Shown here piece after piece: positions 2,922-13,758 of a DNA stretch of 64,000 nt. The stretch lies in the NCBI GenBank assembly GCA_026709935.1, contig JAPOSC010000033.1:1-64000 (forward strand), read 5' to 3'. The position numbers and the translations under genes are program-made. Numbering within the stretch: position 1 is the first letter of the stretch; each line of letters begins with the position of its first letter. The DNA is from Thiotrichales bacterium. Its GTDB lineage: Bacteria; Pseudomonadota; Gammaproteobacteria; HK1. The notes below the pieces were generated by a model that searched no databases, was not told the DNA's origin, and saw nothing but the letters and a program-made list of their open reading frames with translations.

Positions 2922-3122
2922 CTACCGGCTTCGGCGAATGCACTGGTCCCAGTAGTCGTAGGCCACGAGCGCGAGCACACCGATGGTGATGATCAGGAAG
3001 GGCAGTCCGCCCCAGAATCCCGCGAAGCCCGTCGAGATGCTGTGCGAGAGGCCGAGCACGAACAGTGCCAGCAGCGTGGGTCCGACGAGCCCGGTGACAA
3101 TCCTGACGAATGGCGAGATCAT
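2922..3122 (-). CDS. small two-helix membrane protein of unknown function
   Basis: A 66-residue protein starting MISPFVRIV, with two hydrophobic segments and a charged C-terminus (YDYWDQCIRRSR). I do not recognise a named family. I chose the ATG at 3122 because GGAG lies about 7 nt upstream and because the ATG overlaps the stop of an 11-codon ORF (ATGA) that itself begins on the amidase stop. An in-frame start further upstream at 3185 would run into the amidase gene and has no better support. It is the last gene of the minus-strand TRAP/amidase block. Confidence 0.6.
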   Translation of the reverse strand: MISPFVRIVTGLVGPTLLALFVLGLSHSISTGFAGFWGGLPFLIITIGVLALVAYDYWDQCIRRSR

Positions 3123-3154
3123 GACACGTCTCCGAAGTTCGGGGGCTCGCTCAC
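3119..3154 (-). other. 11-codon relay ORF between amidase-like gene and small membrane protein
   Basis: GTG start overlaps the amidase stop (GTGA), and the TGA overlaps the ATG of the next gene (ATGA). The product would be VSEPPNFGDVS. The Shine-Dalgarno sequence for the downstream gene lies inside it. Translation is unproven; the double overlap is what the sequence shows. Confidence 0.35.
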
Positions 3155-4524
3155 GGCGACTCCGCGTCCCGGGCAATCCGCTCAAGCATCCAGCGCGTGG
3201 TGCGAAGGAGCCGGTCGTCGCGGCCGGGGTCGCCGATCACCTGCACGCCGATCGGCATTCCCGATTCGCCCTCCAGCAAGGGTACGCACAGAACGGGCAG
3301 TCCGCAAAGGGTCCAGATGCTGCTGAAGACGCGGTCGCCCTTCTCCCCCTCGGACCGGGGCGCCGGCGCCTCTCCGGATGCCGCCGGCGCGATCACCGCA
3401 TCGTAGTCGTGAAAGAGCTCCGAGAAGTAGCGCTGCGCCCGCTCCATCGTCGCCAGTGCGGCAGGATATCGGTCTTCTCCGGCGCCGCCGCGGTCGGCCG
3501 GACCCGCGCGCCTCGCCGGCCCGGCGCCAGCGTGTTCCGGCCGACCCCGTCGCCATGCGGCTGCCTCGGATTCGACGATGATCCGGTGTGCTGCCGGCAG
3601 CCGACCGAACCATGCCGGCGCCGGGAAGCGCGTGACCCGTGCTCCGAGGTGTTCGCACAGCTCCTCGAACCCGGCCCGACCGGCTGTGGACAGGCGGTCG
3701 TCGCAGGGCATGTCGAGGCGCAGGAAGTCCGGCTCCATCGGCGGCGTCGCCATCACTCCCTCGCGCATGCGGGGCCGCGGCCGGAGCCAGCTTGCGGTGT
3801 CCGCCGCATCGTAGCCGCCGAGCGCGTCGGCCAGATGCGCCACATCCGCGAGGGTTCGACCGAGGATCCCGACCTGGTCGATCGTGGGCGAGAGCGGCAC
3901 CGCGCCGCGCCGCGAGATGACGCCGCGAGCGGGACGAAATCCGAATACGCCGCAGTACGAGGCGGATGCGATGACGCCGCCCTGCGCCTCGCAGGTGACC
4001 GTGAGCGGCACCTGACCGGTCGAGACCGCGGCCGCGGCATGCCCGCAGGGGACGCCGGCGGTGCGCTGTTCGTCGCGCGGGTGGAGCGCGGGGTCTGGCT
4101 GTCCGAGGAGCGCCTCGACGGTGCGGACGGCGCCGATGACCACCGCGCCGGCCTCCCGTGCGCATTCGACCACCGCTGCCCGGCCGCCCGACGGATCGGC
4201 CACCGGGGAGGCGTTCCGACCGTCATCCGTCGAGCCGCCGCCGTCCCCGCCGAACCGCTCGTCGATCGCGATCGGCACTCCGTGCAGGGCACCGAGCGGC
4301 CGGCCGTGCCGGCGCAGCGCGTCCATCTCGCGCGCCCGATCGAGTGCGCCGTCACGATCGAGGCCGGCCCATCCCCTGCCGCCGGCGTCCGTGTGCTCGA
4401 TGTGGTCGAGGCATGCCGCGATCAGCTCCTCCGAGGTGAGCCGGCCGTCCCGGATGCGTTCGGCCGCCTCGACCGCCGTCGTCCCCGGACCCGCCGGCGC
4501 CGGAGCGATCATGCGTCCCCGCAA
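3151..4524 (-). CDS. amidase-signature family protein lacking catalytic residues (probable pseudoenzyme)
   Basis: A 457-residue member of the amidase-signature family (GatA/AtzF-like), of usual length. The fold markers are clear: an LTSEEL-type N-terminus, LHGVPIAI, the Gly/Ala-rich segment ending VSTGQVPLT, and ASYCGVFGFRPARG. The catalytic triad is not. The Lys of GVPxxxKD is Asp (GVPIAIDE), the GGSSGGS loop reads GVPCGHA, and the Ser nucleophile of TGGS is Val (QGGV). Hydrolysis by the family mechanism is therefore unlikely; a binding or regulatory role is possible. It lies downstream of a TRAP transporter and is probably co-transcribed with it. ATG at 4512 is an alternative start. Confidence 0.8.
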   Translation of the reverse strand: MRGRMIAPAPAGPGTTAVEAAERIRDGRLTSEELIAACLDHIEHTDAGGRGWAGLDRDGALDRAREMDALRRHGRPLGALHGVPIAIDERFGGDGGGSTDDGRNASPVADPSGGRAAVVECAREAGAVVIGAVRTVEALLGQPDPALHPRDEQRTAGVPCGHAAAAVSTGQVPLTVTCEAQGGVIASASYCGVFGFRPARGVISRRGAVPLSPTIDQVGILGRTLADVAHLADALGGYDAADTASWLRPRPRMREGVMATPPMEPDFLRLDMPCDDRLSTAGRAGFEELCEHLGARVTRFPAPAWFGRLPAAHRIIVESEAAAWRRGRPEHAGAGPARRAGPADRGGAGEDRYPAALATMERAQRYFSELFHDYDAVIAPAASGEAPAPRSEGEKGDRVFSSIWTLCGLPVLCVPLLEGESGMPIGVQVIGDPGRDDRLLRTTRWMLERIARDAESP

Positions 4525-4646: not shown

Positions 4647-6014
4647 TCAGGGCACGTAGGGTCCGAAGAGCGCATCTGGCAACCACAGTGCGATCGACGG
4701 AAACATGTACATCAGGAACATGCAGAAGATGACGATACCGAGGTACGGCATGATCCCCTTGAAAATCTCGATGAGCTCGATCCGGCCGCGCAGCACACCC
4801 TTCAGGTAGTAGGCCGACATCGCCATGGGTGGGGTCAGGAAGGAAGTCTGGAGGTTCAGCGCGATCAGCATCGCGAAGAAGTAGGGGTTCACGTCGAACG
4901 CGTCCAGCATCGGCAGGAAGATGGGCACGAAGATGATCAGGATCTCCGACCACTCCAGCGGCCAGCCGAGCAGGAAGATGATGAGCTGCGCCAGGATCAG
5001 GAACTGCCACGGTGCGAGATCCATCGACAGCACCCAGTGCTCGATGATGTCGTGCCCGCCGAGGTAGGAGAACACCGAGGCGAAGGTCCACGATCCGACG
5101 AACAGCCAGCACACCATCGCGGTGGCCTTGGCGGTGAGATAGATCGACTCCTTGAGCTTCCTCCACGTGAGCGAGCGGTACACGAACGCGAGCACCAGGC
5201 CGCCGAGCGCACCCATCGCCGCCGCCTCGGCCGGGGTGGCGAGGCCGCCGAGGATCGAGCCGAGCACCAGCATGATGAGCACGGTCAGGGGCACGAAGGA
5301 CGTGAGGAGCTCCAGATAGATTCGCCCCACGCTCGGCGCGTCGTCCATGCGCGGCTTCGGCGCGATGGACGGGCTGATCAGCACCCTCACCACCACGTAG
5401 ACGATGTAGAAACCGGCGAGCATCAGGCCGGGGAAGACGGCCGCGGCGTAGAGACGCAGCGGCGAGAGCTCGGCGATGGCGGAGTAGACGATCAGCATGA
5501 TCGACGGCGGAATCAGGATGCCAAGAGTACCGCCCGCGCAGATGACGCCGGACGCGAAGTCCCTGCGGTAGCTGGCCGCGGCCATGGCCGGGAACGCGAG
5601 CAGCCCCATCAGGGTGACCACCGCGCCGACGATGCCGCTTGCGGTCGAGAATACCGCGCACGTGATGAGCGCGGCGACGGCCATGGAGCCGGGCAGGTTC
5701 CGGGCGGCGAGCTGGAGCGAGTAGAAGAGTCGGTTGACGATGTTGGCGCGCTCGACCACGTAGCCCATGAACAGAAAGAGCGGCACCGCCACCAGGGTGT
5801 CGTTCTCCATCACCGAGTAGGTGTTCTGGTTCAGCAGGTAGAAGATCTGGTTGTTGAAGGCGTCGGCGATGGTCTGGATGGAGCCCGCCTGGTAGTAGGC
5901 GTAGTAGCCGAAGCCCACCCCCATGGCGACCAGCGTGAAGGCGATCGGGAACCCGAGCAGCACCAGGACGATGAACAGCGACAGCATCAGGATCGCGACT
6001 TCGGGGTTGGTCAT
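4647..6014 (-). CDS. TRAP transporter large permease (DctM family)
   Basis: A 455-residue polytopic inner-membrane protein and the main translocation subunit of a TRAP transporter, which uses an ion gradient to import an organic anion. Twelve or so hydrophobic segments span it, with family motifs GFPIAFTLVAMG near the N-terminus, GIVGAVVTLMG and GGTLGILIPPSIMLI in the middle, and LTPPMAMSAYYLKG near the end. It lies 72 nt downstream of the small permease gene. The substrate cannot be read from this subunit. Confidence 0.93.
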   Translation of the reverse strand: MTNPEVAILMLSLFIVLVLLGFPIAFTLVAMGVGFGYYAYYQAGSIQTIADAFNNQIFYLLNQNTYSVMENDTLVAVPLFLFMGYVVERANIVNRLFYSLQLAARNLPGSMAVAALITCAVFSTASGIVGAVVTLMGLLAFPAMAAASYRRDFASGVICAGGTLGILIPPSIMLIVYSAIAELSPLRLYAAAVFPGLMLAGFYIVYVVVRVLISPSIAPKPRMDDAPSVGRIYLELLTSFVPLTVLIMLVLGSILGGLATPAEAAAMGALGGLVLAFVYRSLTWRKLKESIYLTAKATAMVCWLFVGSWTFASVFSYLGGHDIIEHWVLSMDLAPWQFLILAQLIIFLLGWPLEWSEILIIFVPIFLPMLDAFDVNPYFFAMLIALNLQTSFLTPPMAMSAYYLKGVLRGRIELIEIFKGIMPYLGIVIFCMFLMYMFPSIALWLPDALFGPYVP

Positions 6015-6086: not shown

Positions 6087-6662
6087 TCAGTCGCGCGAGG
6101 GAGTCTCCGCATCTTCCATGAGCGCATCGCCGGTCTCGCGCACATCCTCCAGCCGTTCGAGCCAGGCACCGCTGCGCATCGCCCGCCAGCACCGCAGGAT
6201 CTCGGCGACACCCTGCAGGATGAGAAGCGCGCCGGCGACGGGAATGAGGGTCTTGAAGAAGTAGATCTGGATACGCGCCGGGCTGTTCCAGCTCACTTCC
6301 TTGTACCGCCACGAATCGGCGGCGATCTCCCACCCGAACCAGAACAGCGCGAGCATGCCGGGGAAGAAGAACAGGATGTAGAGGAGAAAGTCGATGCGTG
6401 CCTGCCAGCGCACGGGAAACAGGCGGTAGAGCACGTCGCCGCGAACGTGGCTGTCCTGCGCGAGCGCGTAGGGGCCGGCCATCAGGAACAGGGCGCCGTA
6501 CATCTGCACCATCATGTCGAACACCCATACCGTCGGCGCGTTGAGCAAGTAGCGCACGAAGACCTCGTAGGAAACCGAGAGTGTCAGAATCAGGATGCAC
6601 CACCCGAAGGCGCGACCGATCCAGATGCTCAGGCTCTCGATGGCATGAATGATCGACGTCAA
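6087..6662 (-). CDS. TRAP transporter small permease (DctQ family)
   Basis: A 191-residue membrane protein with four hydrophobic helices and the DctQ pattern (VSYEVFVRYLLNAPTVWVFD, then LMAGPYALAQDSHVRGD). No ATG suits the N-terminus. I chose TTG at 6662 because AGAGGG lies about 8 nt upstream and the product then begins LTSIIHAIESLSIW, typical of the family. The frame stays open to 6896, but that extension is hydrophilic and overlaps the binding-protein gene. It forms the permease with the downstream large subunit. Confidence 0.88.
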   Translation of the reverse strand: MTSIIHAIESLSIWIGRAFGWCILILTLSVSYEVFVRYLLNAPTVWVFDMMVQMYGALFLMAGPYALAQDSHVRGDVLYRLFPVRWQARIDFLLYILFFFPGMLALFWFGWEIAADSWRYKEVSWNSPARIQIYFFKTLIPVAGALLILQGVAEILRCWRAMRSGAWLERLEDVRETGDALMEDAETPSRD

Positions 6663-6689
6663 CGGACGGACCCTCTGGAACAAAACGAA

Positions 6690-6715
6690 GCGGGAGCCGC
6701 GGATGCGGCTCCCGC
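6690..6715 (-). terminator. hairpin between binding-protein and permease genes, likely attenuator
   Basis: A perfect 11-bp inverted repeat (GCGGGAGCCGC, loop GGAT, GCGGCTCCCGC) lies in the 83-nt gap. Read on the minus strand it is followed by the T-rich stretch TTCGTTTTG. It probably stops part of the transcription after the binding-protein gene, so that gene is made in excess over the permeases. Confidence 0.55.
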
Positions 6716-6745
6716 GCGGTACCTGCGCGGCATGGAGAGAGCCGC

Positions 6746-7840
6746 TCAGCCGAAGTAGTGCCGATACGCCAGCTTGTAGTCGGGCTGGTTGAGGTTCAGG
6801 TAGTTCATGACCTCCTTCGCATACGCCTTCTGCGACGCCACGACCTTGGCGAAGAACGGATCCTCGGCCGAGATGCGACCGATGACCTTGTCCCACGCGA
6901 CGAGTTGCGCGGACATGACCGAGTCCGGGGTGCGGTATACGTTGACCTCCTGAGCCCGGAGCTTCTCCAGATCCTCAGCGTAGCGCTTGGTGTTGTGCCA
7001 GTAGAAGTTCGAGTTCTCGGCTTCCGATGCGTACCTGAGCACCGCCTGGAGCTCGGCGGGCAGCGACTCGTACTTGCGCTTGTTGAACGTCACCTCGAAG
7101 AACTCCTGCGACTGGTGGAAACTCGCGAGGTGGTAGTGCTTGGAGACGTCCTGCATGCCGAAGTCGCGGTCCGACGTGGGGTTGTTGAACTCCGCGGCAT
7201 CGATGAGCCCCGACTTCATCGCCGGCTGGATCTCGCCACCCGGAAGCTGAACCACGGACATTCCCATCTCCAGCAGCACATCGGCGGCGAGCCCCACGGT
7301 GCGGTACTTGAGCCCGTCCATCTGACTGGCGTCGGTGATCTGCTCCTTGAACCAGCCGAGCGGCTGCGCCGGCATCGGGCTGTTGAAGAAGCTGATCACG
7401 TTGAGGCCGAGGTCCGCCATCAGCTCGTCGAACAGCGCCTGGCCGCCGCCGTAGTGGATCCAGCCGAGCACCTCCTGGCTGGACCAGCCGAAACACGGGC
7501 CGGTCCCGAACAGCGACGCGGCCTTGGACTTCGAGTACCAGTAGGCGGGGACGTAGTGCGCGGCATCGAGCACCCCGCGGTGTACCGCGTCCTGCATCTG
7601 GCTGGTCTTGACCACCGAGTTGACCGCGAGCAGGTCGATCTTGAGGTCCTTGCCGGCCATCGCGTGGACGCGGTCGACGTAGGATCGGGCGTTCTCGAGG
7701 AAGATGCCGCCGCCCCAGGCAGCCTGCATCTTGAGCACCATCGGCTCCGCGCGCACGACGGCGGGGGCCGCAACCGCTCCGGCGGCGGCGGTGATCGCGG
7801 CGCCCTTGAGGAAGCGTCGTCGGGTGGGCTTTCGAGTCAT
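6746..7840 (-). CDS. TRAP transporter substrate-binding protein (DctP family, TakP-like), Tat-exported
   Basis: A 364-residue periplasmic binding protein. The N-terminus carries a twin-arginine signal (RRRFLKG, residues 7-13), then a hydrophobic Ala-rich stretch ending before AEPMVLK. Family markers include WGGGIFLENA, GLKYRTVGLAADVL and a helix-rich C-terminus. The length and the GLIDAAEFNNPTSD segment suggest the TakP/FcbT1 branch, which binds oxo-acids or aromatic acids, but the ligand is inferred only. It is the first gene of the minus-strand TRAP operon, with a probable promoter in 7841-8166. Confidence 0.92.
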   Translation of the reverse strand: MTRKPTRRRFLKGAAITAAAGAVAAPAVVRAEPMVLKMQAAWGGGIFLENARSYVDRVHAMAGKDLKIDLLAVNSVVKTSQMQDAVHRGVLDAAHYVPAYWYSKSKAASLFGTGPCFGWSSQEVLGWIHYGGGQALFDELMADLGLNVISFFNSPMPAQPLGWFKEQITDASQMDGLKYRTVGLAADVLLEMGMSVVQLPGGEIQPAMKSGLIDAAEFNNPTSDRDFGMQDVSKHYHLASFHQSQEFFEVTFNKRKYESLPAELQAVLRYASEAENSNFYWHNTKRYAEDLEKLRAQEVNVYRTPDSVMSAQLVAWDKVIGRISAEDPFFAKVVASQKAYAKEVMNYLNLNQPDYKLAYRHYFG

Positions 7841-8944: not shown

Positions 8945-10357
8945 ATGCAGCACGACACCTACAACGACACCGTGGTGCGCCAGTTCGCGGTGATGACCAT
9001 CGTGTGGGGCATCGTCGGCATGCTGGTCGGAGTGATCATCGCCGCGCAGCTCGCATGGCCGGTGCTCAACTTCGACCTCCCCTGGCTCACCTACGGGAGG
9101 CTTCGGCCGCTGCACACCAACGCGGTCATTTTCGCGTTCGGGGGCTCGGCTCTGTTCGCGACCTCGTACTACGTGGTACAGCGCACCTGCCACGTGCGCC
9201 TGCTCTGCCGCCGTCTCGCGGCCTTCACCTTCTGGGGCTGGCAGGCGGTGATCGTGCTGGCCGCGGTCACCCTCCCCCTCGGCATCACCCAGGGCAAGGA
9301 GTACGCGGAGCTGGAGTGGCCGATCGACATCCTCATCGCGGTGGTGTGGGTGGCCTACGCCTTCGTGTTCATCGGCACCATCGCGAAGCGCCGCGTGCGC
9401 CACATCTACGTGGCCAACTGGTTCTTCGCCGCCTTCATCCTCGCCGTCGCGATGCTGCACATCGTCAACAGCGCGGTCATTCCGGTCGGTCTGTGGAAGT
9501 CCTACTCCCTCTACGCCGGCGTTCAGGATGCGATGGTGCAGTGGTGGTACGGGCATAACGCGGTCGGCTTCTTCCTCACCGCCGGCTTCCTCGGAATCAT
9601 GTACTACTTCGTGCCCAAGCAGGCGGGGCGCCCCATCTACTCCTACCGCCTGTCCATCGTGCACTTCTGGTCGCTGGTCTTCACCTACATGTGGGCCGGC
9701 CCCCATCACCTGCACTACACCGCGCTCCCCGACTGGGCGCAGTCGCTCGGGATGGTGATGTCGCTCATCCTGCTCGCGCCGTCGTGGGGAGGGATGATCA
9801 ACGGCATCATGACGCTGTCCGGCGCGTGGGAGAAGTTGCGCACGGACCCGGTGCTGCGCTTCCTGATCGTCTCGGTCTCCTTCTACGGCATGTCCACCTT
9901 CGAGGGACCGATGATGTCCATCAAGACCGTGAACGCGCTCTCGCACTACACCGACTGGACCATCGGACACGTGCACTCCGGCGCGCTCGGGTGGGTCGCG
10001 TTCATCTCCATCGGCGCGATGTACTACCTCATCCCGCGACTGTTCGGCCGCACGCTGTACAGTCAGCGGCTGGTGGAGACCCACTTCTGGATCTCCACCG
10101 CAGGGATCGTGCTCTACATCACCTCCATGTGGGTGGCAGGCATCATGCAGGGGCTGATGTGGCGGGCGGTCAACGACGACGGGACGCTGACCTACAGCTT
10201 CGTGGAGTCGGTGGAGGCGATGCACCCGTTCTACGTCATCCGCCTGCTCGGCGGGGTGCTGTTCTTCGCCGGCATGGTGGTGATGGCCTGGAACCTGTGG
10301 AAGACGGTGCGGGGCGCACCGCCGGCCCAGGCCCCCATTCCCGCACCCGCCCACTGA
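8945..10357 (+). CDS. ccoN: cytochrome c oxidase cbb3-type, catalytic subunit I
   Basis: A 470-residue, roughly 12-helix haem-copper oxidase subunit that reduces O2 to water at the low-spin haem b and haem b3-CuB centre. Recognisable blocks are [54 protein letters not shown] and [17 protein letters not shown], which carry the haem and CuB histidines. The short N-terminus matches the gammaproteobacterial form rather than the longer alphaproteobacterial one (from memory). A strong GAGGAAGG site precedes the ATG. It is the first structural gene of ccoNOQP. Confidence 0.98.
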
Positions 10358-10407
10358 CAGACCGGAAACAACGGACCGACAGGACCGAAAACGACGGAGA
10401 ATCGCCG

Positions 10408-11022
10408 GTGGCCCGAGGACACGAACGGATCGAGACCAACATCGCCCTGATGGTGGTCCTCGTCCTGATCGTGAGCAGCTTCGGGGGGCTGGTCACCATC
10501 CTGCCCCTGTTCAGCCAGAGCAACCTGCTGCAACCGGTCGAGGGGGTCGAACCCTACCCGGCGCTCGCGCTCGCAGGCCGCGACGTCTACGTCCGCGAGG
10601 GCTGCTACGTCTGCCACTCGCAGATGATCCGGCCCTTCCGAGCCGAGACCGAGCGCTACGGCCACTACTCGGTGGCCGGCGAGTTCGTCTACGACCGCCC
10701 GTTCCAGTGGGGTTCGCGGCGCGCCGGCCCGGATCTCCACCGGGTGGGGGGCCGGTACAGCGACGAATGGCACCGCGTGCACCTGATCAATCCCCGCGAC
10801 GTGGTGCCGGAATCGATCATGCCGGGCTATCCATGGCTCGCCGAGAATGCGCTGGACGGCGAGGCCGTGCAGAATCGGATGCGGGCGCTCCGGCGGCTCG
10901 GACACCCCTACACTGACGAACAGATCGAGGGCGCGGCGGAAGCGGTGGCCGGGCACACCGAGATGGACGCGATGATCGCCTACCTGCAAGGGCTCGGCAC
11001 CGCGATCCGGACGAGGCGGTGA
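10408..11022 (+). CDS. ccoO: cytochrome c oxidase cbb3-type, mono-haem subunit II
   Basis: A 204-residue membrane-anchored c-type cytochrome passing electrons from CcoP to CcoN. An N-terminal helix is followed by the haem site CYVCHSQM (CXXCH) and the highly conserved [14 protein letters not shown] and [13 protein letters not shown] segments; [12 protein letters not shown] supplies the likely axial Met. No ATG fits. GTG at 10408, with GGAGA about 7 nt upstream, gives the normal N-terminus. Its stop overlaps the GTG of a 60-codon ORF leading to ccoQ. Confidence 0.96.
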
Positions 11023-11201
11023 ATGTGGACAAGGCAGTGGACGAGGCGGTGAACGTGATGGACGCCCGGACGTTCCCACCCGGACGGGACCCGCTCTCGA
11101 AGTGGTCCCGAAGGGACGCTCCGGAGACCGAGATCCCGATCGAGTCGCACCATGGGTCGGCCTCTCGGCGCGGCAGCGGGCATTGCAGCGGGCGTTGCTG
11201 A
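11019..11201 (+). other. 60-codon relay ORF between ccoO and ccoQ
   Basis: GTG overlaps the ccoO stop (GTGA) and the TGA overlaps the ccoQ ATG by one base (TGATG). It starts in a 30-bp tandem near-duplication: GGACGAGGCGGTGAA occurs at 11009 and again at 11039. It also contains TGATGGACGCC at 11056, identical to the ccoQ start context at 11199. The predicted peptide is hydrophilic and unlike known families. It is probably remodelled spacer, possibly translated. Confidence 0.35.
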
Positions 11202-11386
11202 TGGACGCCGGCATCCTGCACGGACTCTGGACTGCGGCCATGCTCGCCGTCTTCGCGGTCATCGTGGGGTGGGCGTGGAGCGGACGGCGACGGCGCGACT
11301 TCGAGGAAGCGGCGCGCCTCCCGCTGGAGGAGGATTCGGAGGAAGGCGCCACGAAACCGCGGCACGAGGAAGCCCGCCATGGGTAA
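11201..11386 (+). CDS. ccoQ: cbb3 oxidase small subunit CcoQ
   Basis: A 61-residue protein with one N-terminal transmembrane helix (LWTAAMLAVFAVIVGWAW), a basic stop-transfer patch (SGRRRRDFEEA) and an acidic tail. This is the standard CcoQ plan; CcoQ stabilises the oxidase complex. The sequence is poorly conserved, so position between ccoO and ccoP is much of the evidence. It overlaps ccoP by 8 nt. Confidence 0.85.
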   Translation: MDAGILHGLWTAAMLAVFAVIVGWAWSGRRRRDFEEAARLPLEEDSEEGATKPRHEEARHG

Positions 11387-12287
11387 CTTCAGCGAAGGCT
11401 TCTGGAACATCTTCATCATCGTCTGCACGCTCGGCGGGATCGTCTGGCTGTACCTGCTGACGGTGCGGAACATGGGGGTCCGCCGTCCCACCGGAAGCGG
11501 CGAGGTCGAGACCACGCAGCATGTGTGGGACGAGGATCTCACCGAGCTGAACAATCCGCTGCCACGCTGGTGGGTGGTGCTGTTCCACGCGACCCTCGCC
11601 TTCGGCGTGATCTACCTGATGATCTACCCCGGCCTCGGCTCGAACTCGATGTTCCTCGGATGGACGCAGGTCAAGGAGTACGAGGAGGAGATGGCGCGGG
11701 CGGAAGCGCGCTACGGGCCGATCTTCGAGCAGTATCTCAACACGCCCATCGAGGAGGTGGCGGCCGACCCGAAAGCACTGCGCATCGGCGAGCGCCTCTT
11801 CGCGAGCTACTGCGCCGTGTGCCACGGCTCCGACGCCGGCGGCGTGCGCGGCTTCCCGAACCTGCGGGACGACGTCTGGCAGTGGGGCGGGGAGCCCGCG
11901 CAGATCAGGACCAGCATCCTTGACGGACGCACTGCGGTGATGCCGGGATGGCGGGACGCGCTCGGCGGCGATGCCGGGGTGGACGAGACCATGGCCTACG
12001 TATTCTCGCTCTCCGGCCGCGAAGTGGATTCGGCGAAGGCCGCGGCCGGGAAGGAGAAGTACGACGCCGTATGTGTCGCCTGCCACGGGGCGGACGGTGC
12101 CGGCAACCCCAGACTCGGAGCGCCGAACCTCACCGATGACGTGTGGCTCTACGGCGGCTCGGAGGCGGACGTGCGCCACAGCATCGCACTGGGGCGCGAG
12201 GGCCGGATGCCGGCCCACGAGGACTTCCTCGGAGAAGCCCGCGTGCACGTGCTCGCAGCGTGGGTGTGGAGCCTCTCGAACCGCTGA
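11379..12287 (+). CDS. ccoP: cytochrome c oxidase cbb3-type, di-haem subunit III
   Basis: A 302-residue di-haem cytochrome c that accepts electrons for cbb3 oxidase. It has an N-terminal helix pair, the conserved HVWDEDLTELNNPLPRWW signature, and two CXXCH sites: CAVCH at 11811-11825 and CVACH at about 12072-12086, each followed by downstream Met residues for the axial position. Translation is likely coupled to ccoQ through the overlap. Confidence 0.97.
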   Translation: MGNFSEGFWNIFIIVCTLGGIVWLYLLTVRNMGVRRPTGSGEVETTQHVWDEDLTELNNPLPRWWVVLFHATLAFGVIYLMIYPGLGSNSMFLGWTQVKEYEEEMARAEARYGPIFEQYLNTPIEEVAADPKALRIGERLFASYCAVCHGSDAGGVRGFPNLRDDVWQWGGEPAQIRTSILDGRTAVMPGWRDALGGDAGVDETMAYVFSLSGREVDSAKAAAGKEKYDAVCVACHGADGAGNPRLGAPNLTDDVWLYGGSEADVRHSIALGREGRMPAHEDFLGEARVHVLAAWVWSLSNR

Positions 12288-12315
12288 CAGCACGGTGCGG
12301 CGCACCGGCGAATCC

Positions 12316-13758
12316 GTGACCACCACCCATCCCGAACTCCCGGTTGCCGTGGCCTCGTCTCCATCGGCGCCACCCGTCGACGAGGTCGAGGCGGCGCTCT
12401 ACGAGAAGCGGCAGAAGATCTACCCGCGCGAGGTGCACGGCTGGTTCGCCACCATGCGGTTGGCCGGCGCAGTGGCGTTGCTCGGGCTCTTCTACGGGGT
12501 GTGCTGGCTGCGCTGGGACGGACGCCAGCTCCTGCTCTTCGACTTGCCGGCGCGCAAGTTCAACGTTTTCTGGTGGACGTTCTATCCGCAGGACTTCCTC
12601 TACCTCGCACTGTTGCTCATCCTCGCGGCGCTGGCGCTGTTCTTCTTCACCTCGCTGGCCGGGCGGCTGTGGTGCGGGTACGCGTGCCCGCAGACCGTCT
12701 ACACCGAGGTCTTCCTCTGGATCGAACGCAAGATCGAGGGCGACCGGCCGCGGCAGATGAAACTCGACCGGGCGCCGTGGGGGCCGCGGAAGCTCGCACT
12801 CAAGTCCACCAAGCACGCGGTGTGGATCGCGTTCTCGCTGTGGACCGGATTCACCTTCGTCGGCTACTTCACCCCCATCACCGAGCTGGGCGGGGCGCTG
12901 CGACGGCTCGACACCGGCCCCTGGGAGACATTCTGGATCCTGTTCTACGGGTTCGCGACCTACGGCAACGCCGGGTGGCTGCGCGAGCAGGTCTGCATCT
13001 ACATGTGTCCCTACGCCCGCTTCCAGAGCGCGATGTTCGACCGCGACACCCTCGTCATCTCCTACGACGCGGAGCGCGGCGAACCGCGCGGATCCCGCAA
13101 GCGCGGCGCCGACCACCGCGCGGCCGGTCTCGGGGACTGCATCAACTGCACGATGTGCGTACAGGTCTGCCCCACCGGCATCGACATCCGCGACGGGCTC
13201 CAGTACCAGTGCATCGCCTGCGCCGCGTGCGTCGATGTCTGCGACGAGGTCATGGAGCGCATGGGCTACCCGAAAGGGCTCGTGCGCTACACCACGCAGA
13301 ACGCGGTGGACGGCCAGCCGACCCGCATCGTGCGCCCCCGCACCCTGATCTACGCCGGCGGTCTCGTCGCCCTGCTCGCGGTCTTCGCGGGCTCGCTCGC
13401 CCTCAGGGTCCCGGTCGAGCTGGACATTCTCCACGACCGCAACGCGCTCTACCGGGAGACGGGCGATGGCCTCATCCGCAACGTCTACACCCTGAAGATC
13501 GTGAACATGCACGACGCGCCGCTGCGCTGGCGCATCAGCGCGTCCGGCATCGAAGGGCTGCGCCTCGACATCGGCGCCCCGGATCGAGTGGTGGCGCCCG
13601 GCGAGGTCGCGTCGGTGCCGGCCCGGCTCGATGCGCCGCGCGACGCGCTCCGGTCCGGAAGCACCCCGGTGCGATTCACGGTCGAGGCGGTCGACGCGGC
13701 GGAGATTCGCGCCTCCGAGGAGGCCCGCTTCCTCGGTCCGGCGCCAGGGGAGAGATGA
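12316..13758 (+). CDS. ccoG: cbb3 oxidase maturation ferredoxin CcoG (copper reductase)
   Basis: A 480-residue membrane iron-sulfur protein of the RdxA/FixG family that reduces copper during cbb3 assembly. An N-terminal cytoplasmic stretch (KRQKIYPREVHGWF) leads into membrane helices. The motif CGYACPQTVYTEVF follows, then two 4Fe-4S clusters (CINCTMCVQVCPTGIDIRDG and CIACAACVDVCDEVM), and an Ig-like C-terminal domain. The start is uncertain: GTG 12316 gives the usual length and GTG 12295 is the alternative; neither has a strong ribosome-binding site. Confidence 0.93.
   Translation: MTTTHPELPVAVASSPSAPPVDEVEAALYEKRQKIYPREVHGWFATMRLAGAVALLGLFYGVCWLRWDGRQLLLFDLPARKFNVFWWTFYPQDFLYLALLLILAALALFFFTSLAGRLWCGYACPQTVYTEVFLWIERKIEGDRPRQMKLDRAPWGPRKLALKSTKHAVWIAFSLWTGFTFVGYFTPITELGGALRRLDTGPWETFWILFYGFATYGNAGWLREQVCIYMCPYARFQSAMFDRDTLVISYDAERGEPRGSRKRGADHRAAGLGDCINCTMCVQVCPTGIDIRDGLQYQCIACAACVDVCDEVMERMGYPKGLVRYTTQNAVDGQPTRIVRPRTLIYAGGLVALLAVFAGSLALRVPVELDILHDRNALYRETGDGLIRNVYTLKIVNMHDAPLRWRISASGIEGLRLDIGAPDRVVAPGEVASVPARLDAPRDALRSGSTPVRFTVEAVDAAEIRASEEARFLGPAPGER

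Follow-up and report, generated by a model that had tools for sequence, protein, structure and literature searches.

A triad-less amidase-fold protein as a candidate non-catalytic accessory protein of a TRAP (DctPQM) operon

Malonamidase E2 (MAE2) and other hydrolases of the amidase family (Pfam PF01425) use a Ser-cisSer-Lys triad, which in MAE2 is presumably formed by K62, S131 and S155, and carry a signature loop that we take to be GGSS(S/G)GS. Small partner subunits accompany some members, namely AtzG in the case of AtzE and GatC in the case of GatA, and Tse8 and ClbL, two members of the family with solved structures, have special roles. The protein described here belongs to the same sequence family as MAE2 and has the same predicted fold, but the Lys, the cis-Ser, the nucleophile Ser and the R158 equivalent of MAE2 are all replaced in it. 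AtzE/biuret hydrolase and GatA are its best profile and fold matches, and a small gene adjoins its gene too. In contrast to these systems, the small partner is a hydrophobic protein of 66 residues, the triad is absent and the curated cut-offs are not reached. Tse8 and ClbL share the fold family but differ in context. DctP, DctQ and DctM are present as in other DctPQM TRAP operons, to which this clade adds a gene of the amidase family and a small, conserved gene for a hydrophobic protein. We recognised no account of a TRAP-linked amidase pseudoenzyme in the open-access literature searched, a body that leaves out most subscription papers, so that absence from print is not implied; the passages available from PMC10203303 and PMC3141670 contained nothing bearing on it.

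The window, meaning the whole stretch of 64,000 nucleotides that was analysed, comes from a Thiotrichales bacterium (assembly GCA_026709935.1, contig JAPOSC010000033.1). A sequence-only reading of it had placed an amidase-family protein at 3151-4524, and profile and structure searches bore this out. The open reading frame lies on the minus strand with its stop codon at 3151-3153; as an alternative to the ATG used in Table 1, a TTG at 4524 would give 457 codons. With 143.6 bits against PF01425 (cut-off 27; E 1.3e-41), its product is a homologue of the amidase family. The AlphaFold2 model (m73a372c8b939) has a mean pLDDT of 88.2, with residues 90-100 under 50, and when it was used to search the PDB, amidase-family structures came out on top with TM scores of 0.7-0.8, as would be expected of a predicted amidase fold. 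The structure alignments comprised 44 and 35 proteins, and the fold match is not independent of the sequence match because homologues were already in the alignment given to AlphaFold2. The protein stayed below the equivalog cut-offs of AtzE (156.3 bits versus 461, NF006631) and GatA (120.3 bits versus 481.1, TIGR00132). The position downstream of a TRAP transporter, also claimed from the letters alone, was found as described: dctM, dctQ and dctP lie directly upstream on the same strand, and each product scored above its Pfam cut-off, which identifies a TRAP operon. The small hydrophobic protein (smTM) reached the cut-off of no Pfam family and matched nothing in NCBIfam. Judged by ORF translations only, the operon is bordered on one side by an ORF resembling a copper-type P-type ATPase (71-2581) and on the other side by a cytochrome cbb3-like gene set (8945-13758).

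Table 1. Features of the operon and codons of the active-site positions in the window. Residue numbers refer to the 457-residue form; the alignment to MAE2 is the reference for equivalence.
Feature	Position	Strand	Basis and remarks
smTM, 66-aa hydrophobic protein, core SISTGFAGFWGGLPF, conserved partner gene	2922-3122	-	
Triad-less amidase-signature homologue	3151-4512	-	453 aa from ATG 4512; Pfam, MAE2 alignment, AlphaFold2 model
Gly183 codon, nucleophile Ser position (MAE2 S155); Val184 next	3976-3978	-	Alignments
Cys160 codon, after Pro159, MAE2 S132 position	4045-4047	-	MAE2 alignment
Pro159 codon, cis-Ser position (MAE2 S131)	4048-4050	-	MAE2 alignment
Asp88 codon, catalytic Lys position (MAE2 K62)	4261-4263	-	MAE2 alignment
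TRAP large permease DctM	4647-6014	-	Pfam
TRAP small permease DctQ, start approximate	6087-6752	-	Pfam
TRAP solute-binding protein DctP, Tat-type signal	6746-7840	-	Pfam

Alignment to MAE2 showed that the catalytic triad is absent from the window protein (D88, P159 and G183 at the three positions) and that the equivalent of R158 is Ala186. PDB titles carry the MAE2 mutant names K62A, S131A, S155C and R158Q, in agreement with the catalytic assignment. The signature loop, which reads PGGSSSGS or PGGSSGGS in relatives, is likewise absent, and GVPCGHA stands in its place. The initial proposal that all three catalytic residues are replaced, the Lys by Asp, is therefore correct. The replacement of a GGSSGGS loop by GVPCGHA holds as far as the letters go, but Pro159 and not Cys160 occupies the cis-Ser site, to which the Cys is merely adjacent. 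An exchange of the nucleophile Ser for Val was a misassignment by one residue: the site is Gly183. The closest homologue found, in genome G006 (57% identity), also lacks the triad. Among 107 near-full-length, operon-linked, triad-intact proteins, the highest identity to the window protein was 45%, far from the triad-bearing homologue at more than 90% identity that had been named as a sign of recent decay or sequencing error.

To place the operon in a wider frame, GTDB genomes were scanned with a DctM alignment, and of 557 confirmed relatives the best 80, which belong to the alpha- and gammaproteobacteria, were examined. The operon order is dctP-dctQ-dctM-amidase-small membrane protein, the amidase gene holding a fixed slot, and bearers include SAR11, SAR116 and roseobacters; cultured strains of Ruegeria, Roseovarius and Hoeflea are examples of carriers whose triad is intact. 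Within these best 80 of 557, an amidase match adjoined dctM in 79 loci, a strong link to the TRAP genes; the exception (L142) reaches a contig end 61 bases past dctM. An smTM match was found in 69 of the same 80, so the small gene is conserved beside the TRAP-amidase operon in both classes. Five of the 79 loci (L098, L101, L115, L160, L161), four of them from Rhodospirillales, Rhodospirillaceae or Kiloniellaceae, have smTM between dctM and the amidase gene rather than after it.

The set was extended with loci of genomes related to that of the window or to the first alphaproteobacterial case, and with loci from class-wide searches. Removal of six duplicates from 132 loci left a census of 126. 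One operon, from G367, which belongs to the same class as the window genome, the Gammaproteobacteria, duplicates a Granulosicoccus record (L107), and three loci with no dctM match in the stretch examined (L081, L083, L203) stand outside the census. The 126 divide into 109 with Lys, cis-Ser and Ser in place, 8 with a broken triad, 3 in which only the Lys could be read before a contig end that precedes the cis-Ser, 1 with a contig end after dctM and 5 without an amidase gene within 700 bases of dctM. Thus, the triad is intact in 109 and broken in 8 of 117 readable distinct loci. Two of the five loci without a near amidase gene (L080, L221) have one farther away, and the other three (L214, L215, L216), whose DctM is 64-65% identical, show no amidase match in the stretch examined. 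Since these five exist, the pairing of amidase and dctM is not obligatory, and outside the close clade it is not universal.

The eight triad-less genes all have intact reading frames and fall into three branches. The window protein and that of G006 form the first, with Asp, Pro and Gly at the three catalytic positions and a PCG loop in common. The second consists of five alphaproteobacterial genomes, G382 (a Rhodobacteraceae MAG) and G383, G384, G388 and G390, a non-random draw in that these four were found by searching relatives of G382; their proteins of 404-410 residues have the Lys stretch deleted and both Ser motifs gone. The third is the gammaproteobacterium G077, which has Glu at the Lys and Gly at the cis-Ser position. 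G077 keeps Ser at the nucleophile position, and some activity is therefore possible there. In a tree of 86 rows, the window pair groups with the triad-intact G014 and L131, and the G382 locus (L121) with the triad-intact L091, L114 and L132. A second tree, of DctM plus DctP from 53 of the 126 rows, needs three changes of the triad label, and its starred branches force three. A topology in which the window pair is joined with the alpha five, a grouping picked after the first tree, was rejected by the AU test (p-AU 0.0051). The tree alone cannot distinguish loss from gain; as the triad is typical of the wider family, we infer loss, which would have occurred on at least three branches, the window's included, while the protein was retained.

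By sequence, the nearest solved relatives of DctP are 7ug8, a ketoacid-binding protein, and 2hzk. Of 53 loci with an intact triad and both flanks, 45 have a gene for a D-2-hydroxyacid dehydrogenase within 6.5 kb on either strand, an association that was spotted after the fact. Four of these 45 neighbours are on the opposite strand, and one of the four, in L114, is only 28% identical. No such gene was found within 6.5 kb in the four triad-less loci with both flanks or in the four with shorter flanks. The best NCBIfam match of the dehydrogenase is glyoxylate reductase, below its cut-off. In SAR11, one operon copy (L152, 57-9684) has an FAD-linked oxidase, an iron-sulfur protein and a D-2-hydroxyacid dehydrogenase encoded beside it; we read the iron-sulfur protein as being of the glycolate oxidase kind, and this neighbourhood suggests uptake of glycolate-like acids. 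Taken together, the DctP relatives and the dehydrogenase and oxidase neighbours make small 2-oxo or 2-hydroxy acids the likely cargo of the TRAP system.

To examine which parts of the protein have been lost and kept, 102 positions conserved in at least 90% of triad-intact proteins were used as reference, derived from 107 of the 109 after two cut ones (L104, L109) were dropped. With active-site stretches that were defined after the columns had been seen and that include the triad itself, the window protein keeps 12 of 39 conserved positions in these stretches versus 57 of 63 elsewhere (Fisher p 4.3e-10). Under the same definition, the corresponding numbers are 8 of 39 versus 43 of 63 for G382 (p 4.7e-6) and 20 of 39 versus 55 of 63 for G077 (p 1.4e-4). 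Thirty-four positions have survived in each of the eight triad-less proteins, and all eight retain a C-terminal RLxRxxxW motif that is commoner in operon-linked amidases. R441 is found in 104 of 107 triad-intact proteins, in all eight triad-less ones and in 3 of 22 distinct other amidases; for W445 the counts are 105 of 107, eight of eight and 6 of 22. R438 is less specific (105 of 107, eight of eight, and 11 of 22 other amidases). The other amidases were 24 hand-picked loci, two of which are the same gene, and the duplicate is left out of the counts for R441 and W445. The motif may reflect shared ancestry of the operon-linked clade, or it might form a docking surface.

The explanation that we consider best is that an amidase-fold pseudoenzyme serves as a fixed accessory protein of the TRAP (DctPQM) operon with a selected, non-catalytic role; we would call this an even proposition. 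The description of the protein as a pseudoenzyme, already put forward from the letters, is supported by triad loss on three branches and by purifying selection, which could be measured on two of them. Loss of catalysis itself in the window protein would follow from the missing residues. An unlikely alternative is a repurposed ligand sensor or binding protein, in which the old pocket would bind the imported acid or amide and signal or buffer it. The confidently predicted amidase fold fits this, as do the genetic link to the TRAP system and the ketoacid-binding relative of DctP. However, all three branches have lost conserved positions of the active-site stretches, the equivalent of MAE2 R158 among them, and the model has its low-pLDDT segment at residues 90-100. 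Ligand binding, one of the roles proposed in the sequence-only reading, is thus conceivable but not preferred because of the positions lost. A regulatory role, also proposed there, would be compatible with the data.

Distinctly unlikely, too, is decay, in which the amidase would have become dispensable with the loss of its pathway and the gene would persist as a so far unbroken remnant. To estimate the constraint on the gene, dN/dS was calculated (NG86). For the one pair available on the window branch, the window and G006, the amidase gene gave 0.46 at a dS of 0.72, which is high beside the transporter genes of the same pair (0.067 for dctM, 0.139 for dctQ and 0.089 for dctP) and would suit a remnant. 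Triad-intact amidase pairs (G014, G011, G009, G031) gave 0.24-0.43, with dS near saturation. In neutral simulations of the window pair, run 300 times in each of six settings and reaching a simulated dS of 0.45-0.62 versus the observed 0.72, mean dN/dS was 1.05-1.12, the lowest of the 1800 runs gave 0.68, and 0-3 of 300 runs per setting were without a stop codon. The unsaturated alphaproteobacterial pairs (G382, G383, G384, G390) gave 0.19-0.23 for the amidase gene and 0.01-0.03 for dctM, compared with a neutral mean of about 0.8 and a lowest value of 0.52 at dS 0.2-0.5. No neutral run for the alpha case was free of stops (0 of 200 at each of four distances), whereas all five real frames are open, near synonymous saturation in part. 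Pairs with G388 (dN/dS 0.20-0.24 at dS above 2, one not computable) are uninformative, since neutral runs at the same depth, with a mean of 0.56, reach 0.16 at the 2.5% point; here only the open frame speaks.

The values for the unsaturated pairs thus lie far under neutral, and no stops are present, which speaks against decay. The amidase gene evolves much faster than the transporter genes, and the constraint on the triad-less proteins is consequently real but weak. These estimates cover two branches, G077 being a single genome without a close relative. Selective retention of the protein in the absence of its triad has good support on two branches and is suggested on the third, and the window protein is very probably such a selectively retained, non-catalytic protein. 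For the window, the second triad-less genome G006, dN/dS and the stop simulations make sequencing error or recent decay unlikely; for the alpha five, dN/dS and the stop simulations do so. The absence of the dehydrogenase from the triad-less loci with both flanks, set against its presence in most triad-intact ones, would agree with loss of a pathway. Yet the window genome retains a dehydrogenase homologue of 55% identity on another contig, and pathway loss is therefore only a lead. No dctM match was found around this homologue (L222). The best dehydrogenase homologues in G006, G077 and the alpha five are 36-39% identical.

It is quite improbable that the protein is an inactive heterodimer partner that modulates an active amidase paralogue. 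The window genome does have 11 further amidase-family matches, three of which have another dctM-like gene at a distance of about 7 kb or less (on contigs C13, C77 and C61), and G382 encodes an amidase with intact triad motifs that is 37% identical to a triad-intact operon amidase. Against such pairing, no close paralogue was found in the window genome, where the best-scoring match is 30% identical, and the best other match among those listed in G006 is 29% identical; the paralogue searches covered the window genome, G006 and G382, out of the triad-less genomes that also include G383, G384, G388 and G390. The intact-motif amidase of G382 (L203) was considered as a second copy of the operon and rejected, as it stands in another context, with no dctM match in the stretch examined; it might nevertheless form a heterodimer with the triad-less protein. 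Outside the window, contig C13 of the same genome (L224, 112000-124000) carries a second amidase whose triad motifs are intact, about 2 kb away from another, distant dctM-like gene.

New chemistry with the loop residues Cys160 and His162, the different chemistry that the first reading had offered, has very little in its favour: G006, the nearest relative, shares Cys160 but has Ser in place of His162, and neither residue occurs at those positions in the alphaproteobacterial or G077 branches, so that it was rejected for want of conservation among triad-less proteins. Retention of the gene solely for transcriptional or translational coupling to the downstream small membrane gene, which the short intergenic spacing in many loci might suggest, is hardly credible given purifying selection at the protein level and the swapped order in the five loci with smTM ahead of the amidase gene.

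The reading that we prefer, a pseudoenzyme acting as an accessory protein of the TRAP operon, would work as follows. Most bearers of the operon encode a form whose amidase triad is intact and which presumably is also an enzyme. In addition, the protein would have another task that needs no catalysis. Most likely it would dock on the transporter, perhaps by way of the small membrane protein of the neighbouring gene, and once docked would stabilise, anchor or regulate the transporter. On at least three branches, among them that of the window, the triad would have been lost and the protein kept for this job. The protein is presumably cytoplasmic. The operon and the retained motif point to the transporter or smTM as partner; that the partner is the transporter we put at slightly less than an even chance, and contact with DctM, DctQ or smTM and the nature of any regulation are to be read as candidates drawn from sequence. 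More tentatively still, the TRAP transporters of this clade may have a soluble, amidase-family accessory subunit and a small membrane subunit, the essential role of the former being non-catalytic, which would explain how the gene survived at least three losses of the triad.

A protein that stays in its operon slot through repeated loss of its triad presents the kind of pattern by which a hidden, non-catalytic function comes to light. If this function concerns the transporter, a class of TRAP systems found in marine bacteria such as SAR11, SAR116 and roseobacters would have a soluble and a small membrane partner. If true, annotation misreads the 'amidase' gene of this operon.
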